Position numbers and translations under genes: made by a program. From Pseudoxanthomonas suwonensis (GTDB taxonomy: Bacteria; Pseudomonadota; Gammaproteobacteria; Xanthomonadales; Xanthomonadaceae), in contig NZ_PDWP01000002.1 of the NCBI RefSeq assembly GCF_010093235.1, positions 124,001 through 188,000 on the forward strand: a DNA stretch of 64,000 nucleotides. The letters run 5' to 3'. The first letter of the stretch is position 1, and every line of letters begins with the position of its first letter. The notes below the pieces were generated by a model that did not search any database, was not told the DNA's origin, and worked only from the letters and a program-made list of their open reading frames with translations. Shown in pieces: positions 40,048 to 53,823 of the stretch.

Positions 40048-41904
40048 TTGAACCAGCAAGCTCTTTCTGCCTTCATCTGGTCCGTCGCGGACCTGCTCCG
40101 CGGCGATTACAGGCAATCAGACTACGGCAAGGTCATCCTGCCGTTCACCGTACTGCGCCGCCTGGACTGCGTACTGGCGCCGACCAAGGCCAAGGTGCTG
40201 GCCGAGTACAAGAAGAGGACCGAGGCCGGAGTCAACCCGGACCCGTTCCTGAAGCGCATCGTCGGCAGTGCTGGCTTCTACAACACCAGTCCGCTGGACC
40301 TGCCCACGCTGGTCGGCGACCAGGACCACATCCGCGAAAACCTGTACCAGTACGTGCAGGGCTTCTCGCCCGAGGCGCGCGACATTTTCGAGCGCTTCGA
40401 GTTCCACACCCAGGTCGAGCGCCTGGCTAAGGCCAACCTGCTTTACCTGGTCACCGAGAAGTTTGCCGGCATCGACCTGCACCCCGACCGGGTGGACAAC
40501 GCGCAGATGGGGCACGTGTTCGAGGAGCTGATCCGCCGGTTCTCGGAACTGTCCAACGAGACCGCGGGTGAGCACTTCACGCCCCGTGAGGTGATCAAGC
40601 TGATGGTCAACCTCATCTTCATCGAGGACGCCGACGTGCTCACCCCGGGGAATGCCGTGGTGCGCACCGTGTACGACCCGACCGCAGGCACGGGCGGGAT
40701 GCTCTCGGTGGCCGCCGAGCACCTGCTGGGACACAACCCGTCCGCGCGTCTCACCCTGTACGGACAGGAGCTCAATCCCGAGTCCTACGCGATCTGCAAG
40801 GCCGACATGCTGATCCGCGGCCAGGACGTGGCCAATATCGCCTTCGGCAACACATTGAGTGAGGACGGCTTTCCGACCCGCAAGTTCGACTACATGCTCT
40901 CCAATCCACCATTCGGCGTGGAGTGGAAGAAGGTCGAGAAGGCGATCCGTGCCGAGCACGAACAGCAGGGCTTCGCCGGCCGTTTCGGCCCTGGCCTGCC
41001 GCGCGTGTCTGACGGTTCCATGCTGTTCCTGCTGCACCTGGTGTCGAAGATGGCGCCGGTGGTGGACGGGCAGGGCGGCAGCCGCTTTGGCATCGTGCTC
41101 AATGGCTCGCCGCTGTTCACCGGCGGCGCCGGCAGCGGCGAGAGCGAGATCCGCCGCTACCTGCTGGAGAACGACCTGGTGGAGGCCATCATCGGCCTGC
41201 CCACCGACATGTTCTACAACACTGGCATCGCTACCTATGTCTGGATCGTCTCCAACAAGAAGGACGACGACCGCCGCGGCCATGTGCAGCTGATCGACGC
41301 CAGCGGCTTCTGGCGCAAGATGCGCAAGAGCCTGGGCTCCAAGCGCAAGGAGATGGGCGAGGAGCACATCGCCACCGTCACCCGCCTGTTCGGCGAGTTC
41401 ACCGAGGCCGAGCTGGTCACCGCGCTGGATGCCAAGGGCCAGCCGCTGGGCGAGCCGGTGCTGGTCACCGCCACTGGTGCCGAATCACCGCCGGTAGCGC
41501 CCGAAGGCGGTCGCCTCAAGCGCGTGCCGATCAGCCGTGTGTTCGCCAACGAGGAGTTCGGCTACACCACCATCACCGTCGAGCGCCCGCTGCGCGACGA
41601 GGCCGGCAACATCGTGCTGGGCCAGAAGGGTAAGCAGAAGGGCAAACCGCAGCCGGACAGCGCCCTGCGCGATACCGAGAACGTGCCGCTGGGACAGGAC
41701 ATCCAGGCCTATTTCGAGCGTGAGGTGCTGCCGCATGCGCCAGACGCCTGGATCGACGAGGCGAAGACAAAGGTGGGCTACGAGATCCCGTTCAGCCGGC
41801 ACTTCTACGTATTCGAGCCGCCGCGCCCGCTGGAAGTGATCGATGCGGAGCTGAAGGAGGTCGCCGCCAACATCATGCGGATGCTGGGGGAGATGGCGGA
41901 ATGA
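40048..41904 (+). CDS. hsdM: Type I restriction-modification DNA methyltransferase
   Basis: HsdM methylates adenine in the half-sites recognised by HsdS and joins HsdR in the restriction complex. The 618-residue product has the SAM motif DPTAGTGGM near residue 210 and catalytic NPPFG near 288, with the HsdM N-terminal domain (SAFIWSVADLLRGDYRQSD). The start appears to be TTG 40048, giving the usual N-terminus; there is only a weak purine stretch upstream. It overlaps hsdS by 4 bp. Confidence 0.95.
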   Translation: MNQQALSAFIWSVADLLRGDYRQSDYGKVILPFTVLRRLDCVLAPTKAKVLAEYKKRTEAGVNPDPFLKRIVGSAGFYNTSPLDLPTLVGDQDHIRENLYQYVQGFSPEARDIFERFEFHTQVERLAKANLLYLVTEKFAGIDLHPDRVDNAQMGHVFEELIRRFSELSNETAGEHFTPREVIKLMVNLIFIEDADVLTPGNAVVRTVYDPTAGTGGMLSVAAEHLLGHNPSARLTLYGQELNPESYAICKADMLIRGQDVANIAFGNTLSEDGFPTRKFDYMLSNPPFGVEWKKVEKAIRAEHEQQGFAGRFGPGLPRVSDGSMLFLLHLVSKMAPVVDGQGGSRFGIVLNGSPLFTGGAGSGESEIRRYLLENDLVEAIIGLPTDMFYNTGIATYVWIVSNKKDDDRRGHVQLIDASGFWRKMRKSLGSKRKEMGEEHIATVTRLFGEFTEAELVTALDAKGQPLGEPVLVTATGAESPPVAPEGGRLKRVPISRVFANEEFGYTTITVERPLRDEAGNIVLGQKGKQKGKPQPDSALRDTENVPLGQDIQAYFEREVLPHAPDAWIDEAKTKVGYEIPFSRHFYVFEPPRPLEVIDAELKEVAANIMRMLGEMAE

Positions 41905-43166
41905 GTCTGCCGAGGTATCCGGATTACAAGGACAGTGGGGTGGCGTGGCTGGGTAAGATGCCGGCTCACTGGGATGTAGCGCCGCTGAAACGCTTTCTCG
42001 ACATTGAGAATGGTGCTGACTACAAAGCCATAGAGGCGGACGAGGGGTATCCGGTACTTGGTTCCGGTGGACGCTTCGCGTCCGCGACCGACTACATCTA
42101 CGACGGTGAGTCCGTGCTTCTTGGTCGAAAAGGCACCATTGATAAACCTTTGTATGTCACCGGGAGATTCTGGACCGTCGATACGATGTACTGGTCACGG
42201 ATCCGTTCAACCGCCTGTGGTCGGTACTGCTACTACGCGGCGACCACCATTCCGTTCGGCATGTACTCGACTAACACTGCATTGCCGAGCATGACAAAAG
42301 GCGCGCTTGATGCTCACCGAATGTCGTGCCCGCCTCTTGGCGAACAGCGTGCGATATCTAGATTCCTCGATCGCGAAACCGCCAAGGTCGACGCGCTGAT
42401 CGCCGAGCAGGAAAAGTTGCTGGCGCTGCTGGCCGAGAAGCGCCAGGCCACCATCTCCCACGCCGTCACCCGCGGCCTGGATCCCAACGTCCCGATGAAG
42501 GACTCCGGCATCGCCTGGCTGGGCGAGGTGCCTGTGCATTGGAATACTAGTCGGTTGAAGTATTTGACCGACGCTATCTTCGACTGCCCTCACTCAACCC
42601 CGATCTACGATGCTGACGGAGCCTACCTGGTCATCCGCACGGCGGACCTTGATCGTGGTGTCCTGATCAAGGAGGACCTGTATCGGGTCTCTCAGTCTGA
42701 GTACGAGGAGCGGATCCGTCGCTCAAGGCTGGAAGAGGGTGACATCGTCTATGGCCGGGAAGGTGAAAGATGGGGTCACGCCGCGCTCGTTCCCGAGTCG
42801 GATCGCTATTGCCTGGGGCAGAGAATGATGCAGTTTCGCCCATCTGCAGAGGTCTGTCCGCGATTCTTGATGTGGCAGCTCAATAGTGTCGGAATCTATC
42901 GGCAGGGAGAACTGGACACAGTTGGCGCGACGTCGCCTCATGTCAATGTAAGTACGATCAGAAACTTCCAGTTGACCGTTCCACCGCTGGTTGAGCAAAA
43001 GGCGATTGCCGCTTTCCTCGAAAGGGTGGCTTCAAGCTTTGATTCCCTGGACGCAGAAGCTAGAAGAGCGATTGATCTGCTGAGGGAGCGTCGAAGCGTT
43101 CTCATCGCTGCTGCGGTTACGGGGCAGATAGACGTGCGCGGACTTGGTGAAGCGGAGGCTGCCTAA
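41901..43166 (+). CDS. hsdS: Type I restriction-modification specificity subunit
   Basis: HsdS sets the DNA target through two recognition domains. The 421-residue product has TRD1 (about residues 1–145), a central conserved helix (EQRAISRFLDRETAKVDALI), TRD2 (about 205–355) starting with the same DSGIAWLGEVPVHW text as TRD1, and a second helix (VEQKAIAAFLERVASSFDSL). Local GC drops within both TRDs, as expected for rapidly exchanged sequence. It is linked by ATGA overlap to hsdM, and its TAA overlaps the next ATG (TAATG). Confidence 0.95.
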   Translation: MSLPRYPDYKDSGVAWLGKMPAHWDVAPLKRFLDIENGADYKAIEADEGYPVLGSGGRFASATDYIYDGESVLLGRKGTIDKPLYVTGRFWTVDTMYWSRIRSTACGRYCYYAATTIPFGMYSTNTALPSMTKGALDAHRMSCPPLGEQRAISRFLDRETAKVDALIAEQEKLLALLAEKRQATISHAVTRGLDPNVPMKDSGIAWLGEVPVHWNTSRLKYLTDAIFDCPHSTPIYDADGAYLVIRTADLDRGVLIKEDLYRVSQSEYEERIRRSRLEEGDIVYGREGERWGHAALVPESDRYCLGQRMMQFRPSAEVCPRFLMWQLNSVGIYRQGELDTVGATSPHVNVSTIRNFQLTVPPLVEQKAIAAFLERVASSFDSLDAEARRAIDLLRERRSVLIAAAVTGQIDVRGLGEAEAA

Positions 43167-43927
43167 TGCGAGCCGAGAGCTTCATCGTGGATGGTTGCCT
43201 GCCGGATATCGAGTACCGCACCACCGCGCCGGAGGAGATCGTGTGTCCGCGCGTCACCCGGCGCGATGGCGTGCCCGTGGTCTACCTGCACAACGAGCGC
43301 GCCGCCGCCCATAAGGGGTTCGTCCCCGTCGCCGAGTTCCTGCGCCGGCTGGCAAGGCGTGAGCCGAACCTGGCCTGCACCGGTTACCGCGCCAATGGAA
43401 GACAGACCACGATCTCCTTCAACAAGGACGACCGGGTGACGCTGTCGCCCCGGCTGCAAGCGTGGTTGTCGACGCTGGCAGCGCCACGCGAAGGCAAGAG
43501 CGCAGCCGTGGTCGGGTTTCTCGCCAACCTGATGCCGCTCTACACGCATGAGGACCGAGATGGTGTCTGGTGCGCACGCTCGCTGCAGGACGGCACCCTC
43601 ATCCTCCCGGTAGACGAATCGGACTGGGACGAGGAGCGCGGCACGGTGCGCGTCCACTGGCAGGGTGATGCCGCGCGGCAGTCCCAGGTGGATGGCGACC
43701 AGATCGCCACCCTGGCGCTGGAGCGGTACGTCCGCCTGCATGGCACGGGCGCTTCGGAAGAGGCGATCGCCGCCGAACTCTGGTACATGGCCCGGCATTT
43801 CCATCACAAGACCGGCTGCCACGTGTACCTGCCGCAGCTGCCCGATCCGCCTGACGCGATGGCGCGGCTGCGGCGAAAAGCCGGCGAGATTGGACAGGAC
43901 GTTCTGATCAATCTGCTGACGTCGTGA
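43166..43927 (+). CDS. Hypothetical protein of the restriction island, first
   Basis: I do not recognise this 253-residue soluble protein. It has a mixed alpha/beta composition with no signal or transmembrane segments. A His-rich patch (MARHFHHKTGCHVYLPQ near residues 211–227) and a charged C-terminal helix (MARLRRKAGEIGQDVLINLL) are visible. TAATG at 43164–43168 couples it to hsdS, and GTGA couples it to the next gene. Full coupling inside an hsdMS…hsdR operon implies a role with restriction or another defence, but no function can be assigned. Confidence 0.85.
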   Translation: MRAESFIVDGCLPDIEYRTTAPEEIVCPRVTRRDGVPVVYLHNERAAAHKGFVPVAEFLRRLARREPNLACTGYRANGRQTTISFNKDDRVTLSPRLQAWLSTLAAPREGKSAAVVGFLANLMPLYTHEDRDGVWCARSLQDGTLILPVDESDWDEERGTVRVHWQGDAARQSQVDGDQIATLALERYVRLHGTGASEEAIAAELWYMARHFHHKTGCHVYLPQLPDPPDAMARLRRKAGEIGQDVLINLLTS

Positions 43928-44679
43928 AAGAGCCCTGGCTGCGTCATGTACCCGCCGTGTTCCGGGCATTGGCCGACCCGGAGCTCCGGGCTGGTGTGTC
44001 GCGGCCCGGTAATGCGTCTTTCGAGGACGCCTGTGCGTACTGGGGCGCGCTGCACTACCTGCTGAGCAATGTGCTGGGCTGGAGGGATGTGGGCGGTGGC
44101 CTCGGCTGGTGGTACGCGAGCGGAAAGCCCGTACAGGATTCCCCCGTGCTGGCGCTCGTCAGCGAGGTCTGGGGCGAAGACGACCTGATCGATTACTACG
44201 CGGCCTGGACATGGCTCCCGGCCGGGGTTGGATACCTGCGCTCCCAGGCGCAGGACCCGTTCAACGGTCCCTCACCGACCTGGCTGGCGCAGCACTCGCG
44301 CTGGCCGGACGAGGACTGGTGGCGGGCCTTCGTCCGTCGTGGCCAGGTGCACCACCACGATCCGTTCTATGGCGGCAGCGATCCCCTGCATCTGGCCGCA
44401 CATGCAGGCCCGTGTCTGGACACACCATCGGCTGATCCGCTGGTGCAGAGGTATGCGGCGCAGCGCAGGGTGGTGCTGGTCACGAGCGGGCTGGCACATT
44501 GGCTGGCCGATCTGGAGCGGCTGCACGGGCAGCTTCCGCCACTTGGGGACCGCTCCTGGAGGATCGAGGTGTTCGATCGCACCGTCGGCTGGCTGGGGGA
44601 GTATCGCCGCAGCCGGGTCACCGGCCGCTGGTTCACCGGCAAGCACAGCATCCATATGCAGGGGAAAGGACAGTCATGA
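43924..44679 (+). CDS. Hypothetical protein of the restriction island, second
   Basis: This 251-residue protein is also unrecognised. It is unusually rich in Trp (about 18, for example WWYASGKP, WTWLPAG and WPDEDWWRAF) and has HHHDPFYGGSDPLHLAAHAG near residue 140. A C-terminal TGRWFTGKHSIH follows. Start GTG 43924 overlaps the previous stop. It ends 4 bp past the ATG of the GmrSD-like gene, so it too is coupled. The His cluster could bind a metal, but no catalytic motif is clear. Confidence 0.83.
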   Translation: MKEPWLRHVPAVFRALADPELRAGVSRPGNASFEDACAYWGALHYLLSNVLGWRDVGGGLGWWYASGKPVQDSPVLALVSEVWGEDDLIDYYAAWTWLPAGVGYLRSQAQDPFNGPSPTWLAQHSRWPDEDWWRAFVRRGQVHHHDPFYGGSDPLHLAAHAGPCLDTPSADPLVQRYAAQRRVVLVTSGLAHWLADLERLHGQLPPLGDRSWRIEVFDRTVGWLGEYRRSRVTGRWFTGKHSIHMQGKGQS

Positions 44680-47207
44680 CGCACACGTTGACGGCCAAGG
44701 AACAACCACTGGCCAAGATTTTCAGCGACGAGTACATGTTCTCGATACCGGCCTACCAGCGGCCGTACTCGTGGGGCGTGGACCAGGCGCAGGAACTGCT
44801 CGACGACCTCCTGGGCTACATGCGCACAGGCGGCACGAAGTTGGAGGACATTCCGCCGTACTTCCTCGGCAGCCTGGTGCTGATCAAGGAGGAGTCCTCG
44901 CCGAAGGCGCAGGTCGTGGATGGCCAGCAGCGGCTGACCACGCTGACCCTGCTGCTGGCCTGCATCCGGGCCGTTGTGTCGGACGAGAACGTGCGCAGGG
45001 GCATCACGCGGCGCATCTACGACCAGGGCGACATCGTCTCGGCCACCGAGAACCACTATCGGCTGACCCTGCGCGAGCGCGACAGGCAGTTCTTCCGCGA
45101 GCGCGTGCAGCACGAAGGCGGCATCGAACAGCTGGTCGCTGGCAACGAGGCGCTGCCCGACAGCCAGCAGCGGCTGCGTGACAATGCGCGGCACTTCATG
45201 GCGGTACTGCGCGATCTGGAGCCTGCCGCGCTGGTGCGGCTGGTCCAGTTCATCGTCACGCGCTGCTACCTGGTGGCTGTCGCGACACCGGACCTGGATT
45301 CGGCGTACCGGATCTTCGGTGTGATGAACAGTCGTGGCCTGGACCTGACGGCCACCGACATCCTCAAGGCGGAGATCATCGGTGCGCTGCAGGACATGGC
45401 GCGAAAGACGTACACCGACAAATGGGAAGCATTGGAGTCAGACCTGGGACGCGATGGTTTCGGCGAACTGTTCAGCCACATCCGCATGGTGTACCGCAAG
45501 GCCAAGCCGAAAGGGACCTTGCTCAAGGAGTTTCGCGACCACGTGGCGCCAGCGGACCCGGCCGCGTTCATCGACAAGGTGCTGGAGCCGATGGCCCAGG
45601 CATATCGCGAGATCAGCGATGCTGACCACGCCAGTACGCGTCATGCCGAGGCGATCAACGATGCGCTGCGCTGGCTCAACCGGTTGGAGTTCAAGGACTG
45701 GATGCCTCCCGCGCTTGCGCACTTCACGCGCCACAAGGGAGATCCGGACGCGCTGCTTGCGTTCGTGACCGGCCTGGAGCGGCTGGCGTACTCGATGCTG
45801 GTGCGCAAGGCGGGCGTCAATGAGCGCATCGAGCGGTTCTCGCGGCTGACGGCGGCGGTCGAAGCCGGTGACGATCTGGCGCAGCCCGGGTCTGCACTGC
45901 AGCTCTCGCCGCTGGAGCAGCACGAGATGTACACGATGCTGGATGGGCCGCTGTACCGGACGCATTCGGCGCGTGCGCTGGGCGTGATCCTGCTGCGACT
46001 GGACGCCTTGGTATCCGATGGCAGCAAGACCATGCAGCACGACCAGGTCACGGTGGAGCACGTGCTGCCGCAGACGCCGCGCCCGGACAGCACCTGGGTG
46101 AAGTGGATGCCAAGCGAGCAGGAACGCCAGGGTTGGGTGCACCGGTTGGGCAATCTGGCGCTGCTCAACCGCAAGAAGAACAGCAGTGCCAGCAACTATG
46201 AATTCGACCGCAAGAAGCAGGCCTATTTCAGCAAAGGGGGCGCGTGTGCGTTTCCGCTGACCACCCAGGTGCTGCAACAGGCCGAGTGGAACGGGTCTGT
46301 GCTGCAGGCGCGACAGGCATCGCTGCTCAAACTTGCCGAGGATCACTGGCAGCTGGTCACGCGTGCTGCGGCTGCGAAATCTCCGGCGGCGACGACCGCG
46401 TCAGAAGCGGAGTCGCCTGTATTCGTACTCGGCGGCTTGAATCACCAGATCCAGGCGACGGGCAGGCAAGTGGATGGCCAGTTTGTGGTGCTTGCTGGGT
46501 CGCGCGCACGGGCGGACTGGGTGGGCGTCGACGGCGGTTACAAGTTCCTGCACCAGGATCTGGTCGACAACGGCACGCTGGCACCGCCAGTGGGTGAAGC
46601 ACGCGAGTTCCTGCGCGATACCTGGTTCAGCAGTCCGAGCGCAGCCGCGGCGGTGGTATGGGGTCGATCAGCGAACGGGCGCATGAGCTGGCGCGTGCAG
46701 GCCACGGGGCAGACTTTCGCCGAGTGGGAGGAGGGCGTTCCTGCAGGCGAGTCGGATGAGGACGAGGGGGAAGACGACGCCAGGGAGGACCTGTACCGCC
46801 GCTTCTGGGACCAGTTCCTGGCCAAGGCCAATGCGCGCGGCGCGTTGTTCCAGCGGCGTACCCGCAGCGCGAACCCTTGGCTCGGGGTCGGACTGGGGCG
46901 CAACGGGTTCCGTCTGAACGTGGCCATGACCCGTGGCGAGGCGCGGGTGACCTGCCTGATCCATCACGAAGATGGCGGTACGGCCCTGTTCGATGCACTG
47001 CACGCCCATCGTGCCGAGATAGAGGAGGCGTTCGGCATGCCGCTGGACTGGGCCGGCTTGGCCGAACAGAAGCGTTCCCGAATCCGTTCCACCACCGAGG
47101 GAGGCTGGCTGGTGCCCGAGTCGGAGTGGCCTGAACTCCATGATCGGCTGGTCGACCTGGCGTATCGGATGGACGCGGCTCTGCGCTCCCGGATCAACGC
47201 GCTATGA
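44676..47207 (+). CDS. GmrSD-like DUF262/DUF1524 protein with DUF4357- and DUF4268-like C-terminus
   Basis: The 843-residue product begins with a DUF262 domain (IPAYQRPYSW at 24–33, VDGQQR at 81–86; a DGQQR-type nucleotide-binding site). A DUF1524 HNH-type nuclease domain follows (VEHVLPQ near 461, LGNLALLNRKKNSSASNYEF near 490). These together form GmrSD-type modification-dependent restriction enzymes. A further ~260 residues resemble DUF4357 (GRQVDGQFVVLAGSRARADW near 590) and DUF4268 (DLYRRFWDQFLAKAN near 705, to the end). The extra modules may recognise DNA or nucleotide signals. It is translationally coupled to the previous gene. Confidence 0.88.
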   Translation: MTHTLTAKEQPLAKIFSDEYMFSIPAYQRPYSWGVDQAQELLDDLLGYMRTGGTKLEDIPPYFLGSLVLIKEESSPKAQVVDGQQRLTTLTLLLACIRAVVSDENVRRGITRRIYDQGDIVSATENHYRLTLRERDRQFFRERVQHEGGIEQLVAGNEALPDSQQRLRDNARHFMAVLRDLEPAALVRLVQFIVTRCYLVAVATPDLDSAYRIFGVMNSRGLDLTATDILKAEIIGALQDMARKTYTDKWEALESDLGRDGFGELFSHIRMVYRKAKPKGTLLKEFRDHVAPADPAAFIDKVLEPMAQAYREISDADHASTRHAEAINDALRWLNRLEFKDWMPPALAHFTRHKGDPDALLAFVTGLERLAYSMLVRKAGVNERIERFSRLTAAVEAGDDLAQPGSALQLSPLEQHEMYTMLDGPLYRTHSARALGVILLRLDALVSDGSKTMQHDQVTVEHVLPQTPRPDSTWVKWMPSEQERQGWVHRLGNLALLNRKKNSSASNYEFDRKKQAYFSKGGACAFPLTTQVLQQAEWNGSVLQARQASLLKLAEDHWQLVTRAAAAKSPAATTASEAESPVFVLGGLNHQIQATGRQVDGQFVVLAGSRARADWVGVDGGYKFLHQDLVDNGTLAPPVGEAREFLRDTWFSSPSAAAAVVWGRSANGRMSWRVQATGQTFAEWEEGVPAGESDEDEGEDDAREDLYRRFWDQFLAKANARGALFQRRTRSANPWLGVGLGRNGFRLNVAMTRGEARVTCLIHHEDGGTALFDALHAHRAEIEEAFGMPLDWAGLAEQKRSRIRSTTEGGWLVPESEWPELHDRLVDLAYRMDAALRSRINAL

Positions 47208-47224
47208 GGCTGGCTTGCATGCTG

Positions 47225-47251
47225 GTTGCCTACAAGGCAACAATCGTTGCC
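47225..47251. promoter_or_regulatory. Palindromic operator before the MNT antitoxin gene
   Basis: GTTGCCT and AGGCAAC form a perfect 7-bp inverted repeat around ACA (47225–47241), followed by a third half-site GTTGCC at 47246–47251 that abuts the ATG at 47254. The region lies in the only gap inside the island's gene run. The adjacent antitoxin has an N-terminal winged-helix domain, so autoregulation through this site is likely. Confidence 0.8.
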
Positions 47252-47253
47252 AC

Positions 47254-47883
47254 ATGAGCAACACATCAGCCTTGATGGACCTTCTTTTCGGCCAGACCCG
47301 TCAGGCGGTTCTGGCCGTGCTGCTGCTGCAGCCGGAGGCCAGCTTCCACCTTCGGGAGCTGGCCAGGCTCACCGGCAGCCACGCCGGCACGCTGGGGCGT
47401 GAGCTGGAGAAGCTGGTCGGTGCCGGGCTGCTGGTCCGGCGCGAGCAGGGCAACCAGGTGCGCTACCAGGCCAACCGGGCGTGCCTGCTGTACGACGAGC
47501 TGGCAGCGATGTTCCGCAAGACCCATGGCGCCGTGCCGGTCCTGCGCGAGGTGCTTGCGCCGCTGGCTTCCGCGATCGAGGCGGCCTGGATTTTCGGCTC
47601 GGTGGCCCGGGGCACGGAAGTGGCCGGCAGCGATGTGGACCTGCTGGTGCTCGGGGACGTGGGGTTTGCCGACATCGTGCGCGCCATCCACCCGGCGCAG
47701 ATCGAACTGGGTCGGGAGATCAATCCTGTGGTGTACTCCGGCCGGGAGTTCCGGCGGAAGCTGGCCGCAGGCGATGCATTTGCCAGACAGCTGCTGGACG
47801 GGCCGAAGTTGATGGTGACAGGGGACAGGGATGACATTGGAGAACCTGCTGGCGATCCGCCAGTTGCAGACGCACGCGGCTGA
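47254..47883 (+). CDS. mntA: HTH–nucleotidyltransferase antitoxin (MntA-like)
   Basis: The 209-residue product has an ArsR-like winged-helix domain (residues 5–75; FHLRELARLTGSHAGTLGRE) fused to a minimal nucleotidyltransferase (IFGSVARG near 113, GSDVDLLVLGD near 124). MNT proteins neutralise HEPN toxins, in known cases by adding AMP residues to the toxin. The GSxxRG and DxD motifs are intact. The toxin gene starts 53 bp before this gene ends. The pair lies between the GmrSD-like gene and hsdR, behind its own operator. Confidence 0.88.
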   Translation: MSNTSALMDLLFGQTRQAVLAVLLLQPEASFHLRELARLTGSHAGTLGRELEKLVGAGLLVRREQGNQVRYQANRACLLYDELAAMFRKTHGAVPVLREVLAPLASAIEAAWIFGSVARGTEVAGSDVDLLVLGDVGFADIVRAIHPAQIELGREINPVVYSGREFRRKLAAGDAFARQLLDGPKLMVTGDRDDIGEPAGDPPVADARG

Positions 47884-48208
47884 GCCGGCTGCGATCCGGA
47901 GGCTGCTGGAAGCGGCACGCCGCAACCTGGCCGATGCGCGGGTGGAGAGCATCAGTGCGGACAGCCGCTTCGACGCGGCCTACAAGTGCGCGATGCAATG
48001 CGCGATGCTGGGGCTATGGGCGCGGGGCTACCGTACCTCCACCAGCCAGCCGGGCCACCACCAGACCGCGATCCAGTGCCTGGGACACACGATGGGCGTG
48101 GCGGCCGAAGACATCATCGTGCTCGATGCCTTGCGCAGGAAGCGAAACCTGAGCGACTACGAAGGCGACCCGGTCTCCGAGGCCACGCTGGCCGAAGCGC
48201 TATCGTAA
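47831..48208 (+). CDS. hepT: HEPN-family toxin, C-terminus apparently truncated
   Basis: The 125-residue helical product matches HEPN proteins partnered with MNT antitoxins. The region RRKRNLSDYEG (about 102–112) occupies the RNase motif position, but with Asn and Tyr instead of the usual His. Translation stops at TAA 48206–48208, yet the same frame continues without interruption to TGA 48278–48280 with plausible helix text (AARLLAHTEAWLRANLPDA). That second stop overlaps the hsdR ATG (ATGA), exactly as other genes of this operon do. The original product was probably 149 residues, so the protein is either truncated or shortened with retained function. Confidence 0.85.
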   Translation: MTLENLLAIRQLQTHAAEPAAIRRLLEAARRNLADARVESISADSRFDAAYKCAMQCAMLGLWARGYRTSTSQPGHHQTAIQCLGHTMGVAAEDIIVLDALRRKRNLSDYEGDPVSEATLAEALS

Positions 48209-48276
48209 GCCGCGCGGCTGCTGGCGCACACCGAGGCGTGGCTGCGCGCCAACCTGCCGGACGCGATGGGGGATGC

Positions 48277-51200
48277 ATGAACCTGCACCAGGAACACCAC
48301 TTCGAGCGCGAGATCTGCGAGCACCTGGCCAGCAGTGGCTGGCTCTACGCCGAGGGCGACGCGGCGCATTACGACCGGCAGCACGCCCTGTACCCGCCGG
48401 ATCTGGTCGCCTGGCTCCAGGCCACCCAGCCGGACAGCTGGCAGGCACTGGCAAAGGCCCACGGCCCGCAGGCCCAGGCTGTGCTGGTGCAGCGCATCCG
48501 CAAGAACCTCGATGAACGCGGCACCCTGGAGGTGCTGCGCCGCGGGGTGGAGATGGTAGGGCTCAAACGCCCGCTGTCACTGGTGCAGTTCCGCCCAGCC
48601 CTCGCGTTGAACCCGGTGATCGAGCAGCACTACGCGACCAACCGGCTGCGCGTGGTGCGTCAGGTCAAGCACTCGGCCAACAAGCCCAATGACTGTGTCG
48701 ACCTGGTGTTGTTCGTCAACGGCATCGCCGTGGCCACGGCCGAGCTGAAATCCGACTTCACCCAGTCCGTGGGGGATGCGGTCGACCAGTACCGGTTCGA
48801 TCGTGACCCGCATCCCAAGGGCGGCTTGGCGGAGCCGCTGCTGGCCTTTCCCGGAGGGGCACTGGTGCACTTCGCCGTAAGCCAGTCCGAAGTGATGATG
48901 ACGACGCGACTCGCGGGCGCTGGGACTACCTTCCTGCCGTTCAATCGCGGCAATGCCGGCGGTGCGGGCAATCCCCCGGATCCCGAGGGTCCAGCCACCC
49001 GTTACCTGTGGGAGGAAGTTTGGGCCCCGGACAGCTGGCTGGAAATCCTGGGGCGCTACCTGATCGGAAAGCGCGACAGCAAGAAGCAGCTGAAGACGAT
49101 CATCTTCCCGCGCTACCACCAGTTGGATGCGACCCGGAAGCTGGTGGCCGACGTGCGCGCCAGTGGCCCGGGACAGCGCTATCTGATCCAGCACTCGGCA
49201 GGTTCTGGAAAAACCAACTCGATCGCCTGGTCTGCACACTTCCTCGCCGACCTGCATGATGCCGGCAATGCGAAGATGTTCGACAGCGTGCTGGTGGTGT
49301 CCGACCGCACGGTGCTGGACTCGCAGTTGCAGGAAGCGATCTTCGACTTCGAGCGCACAACCGGGGTTGTGGCTTCCATTACCGGCGAGCAAGGTAGCAA
49401 GAGCGCCCAGCTGGGCGAGGCGCTCAAGGCTGGCAAGAAGATCATCGTCTGCACCATCCAGACTTTCCCGTTTGCGCTCAAGGCCGTGCAGGAGCTGGCA
49501 GCTACCGAGGGGAAGAGGTTTGCGGTCATCGCCGACGAGGCGCATAGCTCGCAGACCGGGCAGGCGGCAGCGAAGCTCAAGGAGCTGCTGAGCGCGAAGG
49601 AATGGGAAGAACTGCAGGACGGTGGGGAGATCGACACCGAAACGCTGCTTGCTGCGCAAATGGAGGCACGCAGTGCCCAGTCCGGACTGACCTATGTCGC
49701 CTTCACTGCTACCCCAAAGGCCAAGACGCTCGAACTGTTCGGACGCACCGGGCCCGATGGCCTGCCGCAGCCGTTCCATGTGTACTCGATGCGCCAGGCC
49801 ATCGAGGAAGGTTTCATTCTCGATGTCCTGAGGAACTACACGCCCTACAGCCTGGCTTTCCGGCTGGCCCACAACGGCAAGGAGTTCGACAACGCCGAGG
49901 TGGAGCGCAGCACGGCCATGAAGGGGATCATGCAGTGGGTTCGCCTGCACCCCTACAACATCGCGGCCAAGGTCCAGGTCGTGGTGGAGCATTACCGCGA
50001 GAACGTGCAGCCGCTACTGGAAGGCCGGGCAAAGGCCATGGTGGTGGTAGCCTCGCGCCGCGAGGCCGTGCGCTGGCAGAAGGCCATCCGCGAGTACATC
50101 ACCCGTCGTGGCTACCCGTTGGACGTGCTGGTGGCATTCTCCGGCGAGGTGGACGATCCGGAGACGTTCCCCGAGCCGGTGACTGAGGGTAGTGCGCTCC
50201 TCAATCCGGGCTTGAAAGGCCGCGATATCCGGGAGGCGTTCGCTCTCCCCGAGTATCACCTGTTGCTGGTGGCCAACAAGTTCCAGACAGGATTCGACCA
50301 GCCCCTGCTATGTGGCATGTACGTGGACAAGAAGCTGGGGGGCATCCAGGCCGTGCAAACCCTGTCGCGGCTCAATCGTGCTTATCCGGGCAAGGACACC
50401 ACCTACATCCTGGATTTCCAGAACGACACGGACGAGATCCTGCAGGCGTTCCGGACCTACTACGAGACGGCTGAGCTGGAAGCGACAACCGATCCGGATC
50501 TGGTGTTCAGCTTGCGGGCCAAGCTCGACGCTGCCGGCCACTACGACGACTACGAGGTTGAGCGCGTGGTCAAGGTCGAGCTTGACGCTGGTGCAAAGCA
50601 GTCGCAGCTGGTGGCTGCCATCCAGCCCGTCGCGGATCGCCTGCTCAAGCAGTACAAGGCTGCCGCCGAGGATTTGGCCAAGGCGCAGGCGGCAGGGCAG
50701 TCGCAGGCTGCGGACGATGCCAAGGACAAGCTGGATGCCTTGCTGCTGTTCAAGGGCGACATGGGGGCATTCAACAGGATCTACGCGTTCCTGTCGCAGA
50801 TGTTCGATTACGGCAACACCGACATCGAGAAGCGGTTCCTGTTCTATCGCCGTCTTCTGCCGCTGCTGGAGTTCGGGCGCGAGCGTGAAACGGTGGATCT
50901 GTCCAAGGTGGTCCTGACCCACCACACGCTGCGTAACCGCGGTAAGCAGACGCTTTCCCTCTCCAGCGCCGAGCCGTATCCGCTTTCGCCAATGGAGGCG
51001 GTAGGCAGTGGTGGGGTGCGGGAAAAGGAGCACGCCTACCTTGCAGAGATCATTGAACGGGTCAACGGCTTGTTCGAAGGGCAGATCACGGACGACGACC
51101 AGCTGCAGTACGTGAATGGAGCGATCAAGGGCAAGTTGCTGCAGAACGCGACCCTGGCGCAGCAGGCGGCATCCAACTCCAAGGAGCAGTTCGGGAATTC

Positions 51201-51393
51201 TCCGGATCTGTCCCGTGCCCTGGTGGACGCGATCATCGACGCATTCGAGGCCCATGCCACGATGAGCCAGCAGGCGCTGGACTCCAAGCGCGTCCAGGAT
51301 GGATTGAAGGACATCCTCCTGGGGCCGGGACAGCTGTACGAATCTCTCCGGGCGCGTGCCGGTTCCGGACAGAGCGCAGGATTGTCCGGCTAG
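48277..51393 (+). CDS. hsdR: Type I restriction endonuclease, motor and nuclease subunit
   Basis: HsdR translocates DNA in an ATP-dependent way and cuts at a distance in the R2M2S complex. The 1038-residue product has the N-terminal nuclease with a PD-(D/E)xK core (DLVLFVNGIAVATAELKSD near residue 148), Walker A in HSAGSGKT near 306 and DEAH near 419. Later helicase motifs include FTATPKAKTLE and QTLSRLNRAYPGKD. Length is normal. ATG 48277 overlaps the ancestral stop of the HEPN gene. It is separated from hsdMS by five inserted genes. Confidence 0.95.
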   Translation: MNLHQEHHFEREICEHLASSGWLYAEGDAAHYDRQHALYPPDLVAWLQATQPDSWQALAKAHGPQAQAVLVQRIRKNLDERGTLEVLRRGVEMVGLKRPLSLVQFRPALALNPVIEQHYATNRLRVVRQVKHSANKPNDCVDLVLFVNGIAVATAELKSDFTQSVGDAVDQYRFDRDPHPKGGLAEPLLAFPGGALVHFAVSQSEVMMTTRLAGAGTTFLPFNRGNAGGAGNPPDPEGPATRYLWEEVWAPDSWLEILGRYLIGKRDSKKQLKTIIFPRYHQLDATRKLVADVRASGPGQRYLIQHSAGSGKTNSIAWSAHFLADLHDAGNAKMFDSVLVVSDRTVLDSQLQEAIFDFERTTGVVASITGEQGSKSAQLGEALKAGKKIIVCTIQTFPFALKAVQELAATEGKRFAVIADEAHSSQTGQAAAKLKELLSAKEWEELQDGGEIDTETLLAAQMEARSAQSGLTYVAFTATPKAKTLELFGRTGPDGLPQPFHVYSMRQAIEEGFILDVLRNYTPYSLAFRLAHNGKEFDNAEVERSTAMKGIMQWVRLHPYNIAAKVQVVVEHYRENVQPLLEGRAKAMVVVASRREAVRWQKAIREYITRRGYPLDVLVAFSGEVDDPETFPEPVTEGSALLNPGLKGRDIREAFALPEYHLLLVANKFQTGFDQPLLCGMYVDKKLGGIQAVQTLSRLNRAYPGKDTTYILDFQNDTDEILQAFRTYYETAELEATTDPDLVFSLRAKLDAAGHYDDYEVERVVKVELDAGAKQSQLVAAIQPVADRLLKQYKAAAEDLAKAQAAGQSQAADDAKDKLDALLLFKGDMGAFNRIYAFLSQMFDYGNTDIEKRFLFYRRLLPLLEFGRERETVDLSKVVLTHHTLRNRGKQTLSLSSAEPYPLSPMEAVGSGGVREKEHAYLAEIIERVNGLFEGQITDDDQLQYVNGAIKGKLLQNATLAQQAASNSKEQFGNSPDLSRALVDAIIDAFEAHATMSQQALDSKRVQDGLKDILLGPGQLYESLRARAGSGQSAGLSG

Positions 51394-52804: not shown

Positions 52805-52926
52805 CCGGGGAAGGGCCTTGGAAGGCCACCTTCGGGTGGCCTTCTTGGGCTGCTCCAGATACCTGTTGACGACTTGCTGGCTCCCGAAGAATGCTGCCGG
52901 CCAATCGCAGCACACGGGGGCAGGGG

Positions 52927-53823
52927 ATGAGCGTGGAATTGACGGCGACGGGTGGCCTTATCGAGCTCAACGATCTGCTCGGGAAGGCAGGCATCGATCC
53001 GGAAGCCACCCTGGTGATGCGCCATCGTCCTGCCGAAAAGACACTCCGCGAAGTGCTCCCATGGTTGGCCGCCGATCGCCACGACCTCTACAACGCCTAC
53101 CAGAGCCAGCACGGCCCGCGGGTGGAGGCTGCCTTGCAGCGGGCCACTTACCTGGTTTCCCTGATAGGGCACGAGGCCGGCGCTGCGCTTTTCGTGGGGA
53201 TCTACCGCGTGGCTGGGGAGCAGGTCGTCAGCCGGGAGGCCCTGGAGACCACACCGCATATGCAGGAGCTTTTTGCGCTCGGATGCGGTGGGCCGGAGCG
53301 GGAATCGTTGCTGCGCTTTGACTTGCAGCTGGCGCCGGCGCTTGCGGCGTGGAAGGGCCGGCTGGTGCTGACCTGGCCCGGCATCGAGCGGTCCTGGTGG
53401 CGCTGGGCGGATCGCAACGTCATCCCGGTTCGGGCGATCCACGAGGAAAGCATGCTGGTCCGCAAGGTGCCGGACTGGCAGCAGCTGGTGCTGCGCTGGG
53501 AGGAGCTGGCGGTACTGCCGACGAGCTGGAAGGCGGCGCTGTGCCAGTGGCGCGGCATCTACTACATCTTCGACCGTCAATCCGGAAAGGGTTACGTCGG
53601 ATCGGCCTACGGCGCGGACAATATCCTCGGCCGCTGGCAGGGATACGCGAAGGACGGACACGGCGGCAACAAGCTCCTGCGCGGATGCCGCAAGGAGAAC
53701 CTGGAGTTCTCGATCCTGCAGCGCGTCGGACCGGATATGCCTGCGGCCGAGGTGATCGAGATCGAAGGCCACTGGAAGCAGCGCCTGCATACCCGCGCGC
53801 CGTACGGCTTGAACGACAACTGA
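52927..53823 (+). CDS. GIY-YIG-domain protein
   Basis: The 298-residue product has an unassigned N-terminal ~200 residues (two WPG/Trp-rich segments) and a C-terminal GIY-YIG nuclease domain. The domain starts with RGIYYIFDRQSGKGYVGSAY near residue 208, has Arg in ILGRW, Glu in VIEIEGHWK near 280 and Asn in YGLNDN at the end. Catalytic residues seem preserved. Whole-protein homologues are often single genes of unknown role, possibly anti-phage. It lies just past the restriction island. ATG 52927 is chosen; a further ATG at 52891 has no ribosome-binding site. Confidence 0.8.
   Translation: MSVELTATGGLIELNDLLGKAGIDPEATLVMRHRPAEKTLREVLPWLAADRHDLYNAYQSQHGPRVEAALQRATYLVSLIGHEAGAALFVGIYRVAGEQVVSREALETTPHMQELFALGCGGPERESLLRFDLQLAPALAAWKGRLVLTWPGIERSWWRWADRNVIPVRAIHEESMLVRKVPDWQQLVLRWEELAVLPTSWKAALCQWRGIYYIFDRQSGKGYVGSAYGADNILGRWQGYAKDGHGGNKLLRGCRKENLEFSILQRVGPDMPAAEVIEIEGHWKQRLHTRAPYGLNDN

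Follow-up and report, generated by a model that had tools for sequence, protein, structure and literature searches.

Why does a type I restriction-modification operon carry five further genes between hsdS and hsdR, and do these genes work with the restriction enzyme or on their own? We analysed a window of 64,000 nucleotides from Pseudoxanthomonas suwonensis (contig NZ_PDWP01000002.1, positions 124,001 to 188,000), in which hsdM and hsdS are followed by two genes of undescribed families (U1 and U2), a GmrSD nuclease gene, an MNT-HEPN pair and finally hsdR. An original prediction, made from the letters of the window, treated the eight genes as one system. Our results suggest that the inserted genes are probably independent defence modules, stacked in a slot of a type I operon whose subfamily is found across Proteobacteria.

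Open reading frames (ORFs) and family matches confirmed all eight genes, and the predicted nesting of defence genes in a type I layout on one strand (+) is supported by gene order and family matches. hsdM (40048..41904, TTG start) encodes the N6-adenine methyltransferase subunit (Pfam N6_Mtase, 2e-58, and HsdM_N, 4e-26; PADLOC MTase_I, 1e-270) and is 74–92% identical to four relatives. hsdS (41901..43166) encodes the specificity subunit (Pfam Methylase_S in two stretches; PADLOC Specificity_I, 3e-111), and hsdR (48277..51393) the restriction/translocation subunit (Pfam HSDR_N, SWI2_SNF2 and ResIII; NCBIfam hsdR, 3e-46, under that model's cut-off). Together they hold the type I domain set: N6_Mtase and HsdM_N in HsdM, specificity domains in HsdS, HSDR_N and a superfamily 2 motor in HsdR. 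The TAATG, GTGA and ATGA overlaps said to link the genes were borne out, with overlaps at five of the seven junctions (hsdM/hsdS ATGA, hsdS/U1 TAATG, U1/U2 GTGA, U2/GmrSD ATGA, MNT/HEPN 53 bp); GmrSD and MNT are separated by 46 bp, and HEPN and hsdR by 68 bp. The guanine-plus-cytosine content is ∼61–67% over roughly 40–54 kb and ∼68–76% in the surroundings.

The interval between hsdS and hsdR is a cargo slot that is filled differently in related operons, and many of the fillers are defence-like. We scanned genome contigs with an hsdM alignment and took the best 80 of 582 relatives, a set that therefore favours close relatives. Of these 80 loci, 69 showed hsdM and hsdS together with the beginning of hsdR; with the window and three loci found through U1 (L002, L012 and L013), 73 of 84 loci were complete. 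Gap ORFs were called by our own plus-strand scoring script, which recovers the window's five genes and will miscall some others. At least one gap ORF was present in 60 of the 69 loci and none in nine. Gaps spanned 8 to 7210 bp; nine of the 73 were 94 bp or shorter, and the window's gap (5113 bp) was the third largest. Among 120 gap ORFs of at least 100 residues, the best 25 of 52 Pfam families included DUF4357 (17), NucS_C (15), DUF4268 (11), DUF5655 (11), GmrSD_N (7), RAMA (6), NTP_transf_2 (5), Fic (4), AbiEii (2), HNH (2), HipA_C (1) and YhcG_C (1). PDC-S14, S11, S18, HEC-06 and M05A were within the best 25 of 231 PADLOC models. The spacing between hsdM and hsdS, at least 370 bp in 18 of the 73 complete loci, makes a second, smaller slot.

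The modules of the window also occur without each other. We searched samples of 297, 247 and 237 genomes, which overlap and all come from one family. U1 was carried by 11 of 297 genomes, in seven of them within the slot (the window's genome, G003, G018, G033, G921, G1041 and G1064). Outside the slot, U1 had an HNH_2 protein encoded on the opposite strand within ∼1 kb (L114, L116), directly followed a MrcB_N/NOV_C protein (L115), or came after both an AAA_21 ATPase and a DUF4276-like protein that was just under cut-off (L117). It was the sole cargo in L045 and L002. All eight U2 carriers among 247 genomes had the gene behind this hsdS or behind U1; hsdR was visible in seven, and the contig of L129 ends inside U2. 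U2 was found without U1 in L126–L129 and in L125, which comes from the same genome as L019.

The single-chain GmrSD gene (44676..47207), of the type IV restriction family, encodes DUF4357 and DUF4268 tails. It matches GmrSD_N (8e-38) and GmrSD_C (3e-25) in Pfam, where GmrS is DUF262 and GmrD is DUF1524, as well as Orf5 (1e-173) and HEC-06 (1e-68) in PADLOC; its translation shows DGQQR and an H..N..N stretch, which we take to be its motifs. Some GmrSD match was present in 50 of 237 genomes, and one alignment covered at least 99% of the protein in three, all in this slot; further genomes (for example G021, G049 and G894) have longer frames that hold pieces resembling GmrSD and DUF4268. L126 carries GmrSD without MNT-HEPN. 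By BLAST labels, DUF4357 occurs in 19 of the 73 loci (13 without a GmrSD_N label) and DUF4268 in 12 (11 without), and L064, L071, L072 and L079 have both tails on two separate ORFs. The tails on GmrSD proteins, and GmrSD inside type I loci, were already noted in the accessible part of Machnicka et al. (PMC4619093).

MNT (47254..47883) has a winged-helix-like part and a nucleotidyltransferase (Pfam NTP_transf_2, above cut-off), and its translation carries GSx10DxD, presumably the motif of the latter. MNT and its predicted HEPN-type partner (47831..48208) gave adjacent PADLOC matches to PDC-M05A (6e-75) and PDC-M05B (2e-60). The NCBIfam MntA_antitoxin equivalog scored 26.2 bits against a cut-off of 60 bits, and we therefore did not file the pair as a type VII MntA/HepT toxin-antitoxin system. 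RNxxDYxGDP, which we take to be the HEPN motif region from R-x4-6-H, was conserved in all eight HEPN copies read. The window's protein matched no HEPN model in Pfam or NCBIfam, and the putative HEPN label rests on the PDC-M05B match and on the accessible published description of PDC-M05. The window's HEPN stops at residue 125, 24 residues short of all seven full-length relatives compared: it has 149 residues and overlaps the start of hsdR in L017, L020, L029, L037 and L067, and is also full length in L111 and L112. The overlap with hsdR is thus lost in the window. MNT was present in 28 of 237 genomes, directly before this hsdR in six. The other 22 had no match to this hsdR in 1.5 kb on either side, among them L148, where MNT lies ∼1.1 kb before an hsdM. 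The closest MNT of the family sample (L131, 87%) had no hsd match within 1.5 kb, and MNT-HEPN was the sole cargo in L067.

We mapped the cargo on a quick hsdM tree of the 73 loci (single model, no mixture) and compared the fewest changes with 200 label shuffles. U1 needed 8 changes for 9 carriers (shuffled mean 8.6; 61 of 200 as low), MNT 5 for 6 (5.9; 21 of 200) and GmrSD_N 10 for 11 (10.5; 82 of 200). S18-like cargo needed 9 changes for 11 carriers (shuffled mean 10.4) and DUF4268 cargo 10 for 12 (11.3). The placement of U1, MNT and GmrSD, with few carriers each, is not clearly better than that of shuffled labels. The island had been said to behave as one system; this view is not supported, since the modules recur apart (L045, L002, L125–L129, L067) and sit on the tree about as shuffled labels do.

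Within the slot, the modules follow an order: U1 and then U2 beside hsdS, MNT-HEPN beside hsdR, and other cargo in between. Because these genes themselves led us to several of the loci, the counts give position and not frequency. U1 was the first cargo after hsdS in 13 of 13 cases (window, L002, L012, L013, L017, L036, L037, L040, L045, L053, L111, L112 and L113). U2 was the first cargo, or the second behind U1, in nine of nine (window, L111, L012, L017, where it is cut short, and L125–L129). MNT-HEPN was last before hsdR in all nine fully read slots (window, L017, L020, L029, L037, L067, L111, L112 and L127); L133 and L136 have it there too and were left uncounted because they were recognised by that adjacency.

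A search of other hsdS-hsdR gaps for the same five-gene block had been proposed as a check, and an order unique to this genome, with its genes scattered elsewhere, had been named as the refuting outcome. That outcome came true by half: the genes do recur separately, but the whole eight-gene order recurs in one other genome (L111), of another genus and at the same chromosomal site. L112 has U1-GmrSD-MNT-HEPN without U2. The flanks of two relatives, L011/L016 and L111, align to the window up to 29919 on the left side and from 53845 or 54595 onwards on the right side; the operon therefore occupies the same chromosomal site in three genomes, counting the window's own. G003 (L011) belongs to the window's genus. 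The synonymous substitution rate (dS) between the window and L111 was uneven (HEPN 0.09, GmrSD 0.10, MNT 0.10, hsdM 0.17, U2 0.21, U1 0.30, hsdR 0.42). Identity falls inside hsdR near 50000, and the second half of hsdS has diverged. The uneven dS and the fall inside hsdR point to mosaic recombination. The ratio of nonsynonymous to synonymous rates (dN/dS) against L111 was 0.08–0.31 across seven genes tested (hsdS left out), with 0.08 for GmrSD; three comparisons each gave 0.12–0.20 for U1 and 0.26–0.31 for U2. The seven genes are under purifying selection. Because of these ratios and the same order in another genus, the gene set is more than a chance assembly.

U1 and U2 appear to be undescribed families; they hold the hsdS-proximal places, and this is the new part of our finding. 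U1 (43166..43927) has a core at residues ∼110–253 and, in long-form copies, an N-terminal extension (∼1–105), as read from an 18-row alignment; in its predicted structure, block means of the predicted local distance difference test were 83–93 over residues 111–220. It had no curated family match: none in Pfam at cut-off (one sub-threshold, E 0.025), PADLOC, NCBIfam or PHROGs. U2 (43924..44679; 8-row alignment) matched nothing in Pfam at cut-off, PADLOC, NCBIfam or PHROGs. We recognised no paper on either family, neither having a name to search by. A weak U1-like match in G001 (E 2e-4) was dropped, the profile finding no match there or in L014; one to U2 in G058 (E 2e-4) was taken as chance, its frame lying inside a larger transporter-looking ORF. 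An IS1595-type transposase gene separates hsdS from U1 in L113 (10734-11696). U1 relatives also lie near the ends of two stretches from contigs with filamentous-phage genes (L109:70-501 and L110:99-533).

Cargo in type I operons is itself a known idea, published, by the accessible text of the papers, for TgvAB and DarTG2. Like the window's GmrSD, TgvAB of the Vibrio cholerae VPI-2 type I operon belong to the GmrSD family and are encoded between hsdS and hsdR of a single operon, and protection was similar after mutation of the HsdR nuclease lysine (PMC11411939). However, TgvAB are two proteins and the sole cargo, whereas the window's GmrSD is one chain with two tails in a slot common to U1, U2 and MNT-HEPN. 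DarTG2 of an enteropathogenic Escherichia coli type I operon is likewise a toxin-antitoxin pair between hsdS and hsdR, but of another type than the window's (PMC12255303). RloF in Campylobacter type I loci is a DUF262 protein in the same place, with another cargo set (PMC4619093, PMC11411939). The PDC and HEC families are phage defence candidates obtained by guilt-by-embedding (Payne et al. 2024 preprint, as far as accessible). MNT and HEPN of the window match PDC-M05A/B, and slot relatives match PDC-S11, S14, S18, S24, M21 and HEC-06, whereas PADLOC has no model that matches U1 or U2. M05A was up-regulated during phage infection according to the available text of one study (PMC12584637). Our search of the accessible literature found no paper that describes a HEPN-nucleotidyltransferase pair within type I loci.

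Taken together, this genome has four modules stacked in the slot: U1, U2, the GmrSD nuclease and the MNT-HEPN pair. A single transcript would express the operon. HsdMSR would cut unmodified foreign DNA, GmrSD would cut modified DNA that HsdMSR misses, and MNT-HEPN may act as a last resort in the manner of a toxin-antitoxin system; U1 and U2 would be accessory proteins on the hsdS side. The modules would work in parallel, with expression and transfer in common and no signalling chain. In this common bacterial immune system, a fixed frame can be told apart from parts that are exchanged, and the natural variants (slot empty, U1 only, U2 with GmrSD, all five) make crosstalk between embedded genes and the restriction enzyme testable.

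Several observations weigh against independent modules. Tree signal is kept by DUF4357 (13 changes for 19 carriers; shuffled mean 17.1), by empty slots (6 for 9; 8.7) and by one further cargo family (3 for 6; 5.8), and the shuffle test has little power at 6–12 carriers. The gap-ORF family tallies stand without a control set of non-slot ORFs, and the PADLOC tally is partly circular because embedding is how the PDC models were identified in the first place. The whole order in L111 and the partial set in L112 imply that some modules may travel together. The non-random order and the finding of U2 in this slot alone fit a functional tie to the enzyme. Finally, tgvAB alone was 10- to 100-fold less protective against several phages than the complete cluster; the authors give stoichiometry as a plausible cause (PMC11411939, accessible text).

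We keep a tighter link to the enzyme open because every U2 copy seen lay behind this hsdS, and both U1 and U2 lie on the hsdS side. They could be new type I accessory subunits that bind HsdS and relay the restriction complex's state to whichever effector follows downstream, the slot being a plug-in socket; this is unlikely. Slightly less probable still is one integrated system, in which the inserted genes form a backup that is set free upon restriction failure, in the way that the EcoprrI complex restrains PrrC. The overlapping genes, the identical order in another genus and the confinement of U2 speak for it, but the modules are also present without each other, and 22 of 28 MNT carriers show no match to this hsdR within 1.5 kb. 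We found no evidence for the predicted backup, and HsdR cleavage was not needed for TgvAB protection, which persisted with the nuclease lysine mutated (PMC11411939, accessible text). We give the same small chance to the idea that MNT-HEPN and other toxin-antitoxin cargo are mainly addiction modules that prevent loss of the operon while the rest hitchhikes. The constant last place of MNT-HEPN and the Fic, AbiEii and HipA_C matches would fit, yet nuclease-type matches (NucS_C, GmrSD_N, HNH and YhcG_C) are commoner, and the operon is kept although the window's HEPN is truncated. Neutral accumulation at a recombination hotspot, without benefit here, would suit that truncation and L017, where U2 is cut after ∼106 residues and a bile-acid-symporter-like ORF shares the slot, but is very improbable given the purifying selection on every tested gene and the many cargo ORFs that match defence-candidate models, albeit without a control set.

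Independent modules in a slot thus remain our preferred reading. Two observations lie beside it. Further hsdS fragments occur downstream of hsdS in L093 (12896-17342), possibly for specificity switching. Downstream of the window's operon, an ORF at 52891-53823 weakly matches TIGR01453, a model of group I intron endonucleases (E 0.007, under cut-off).

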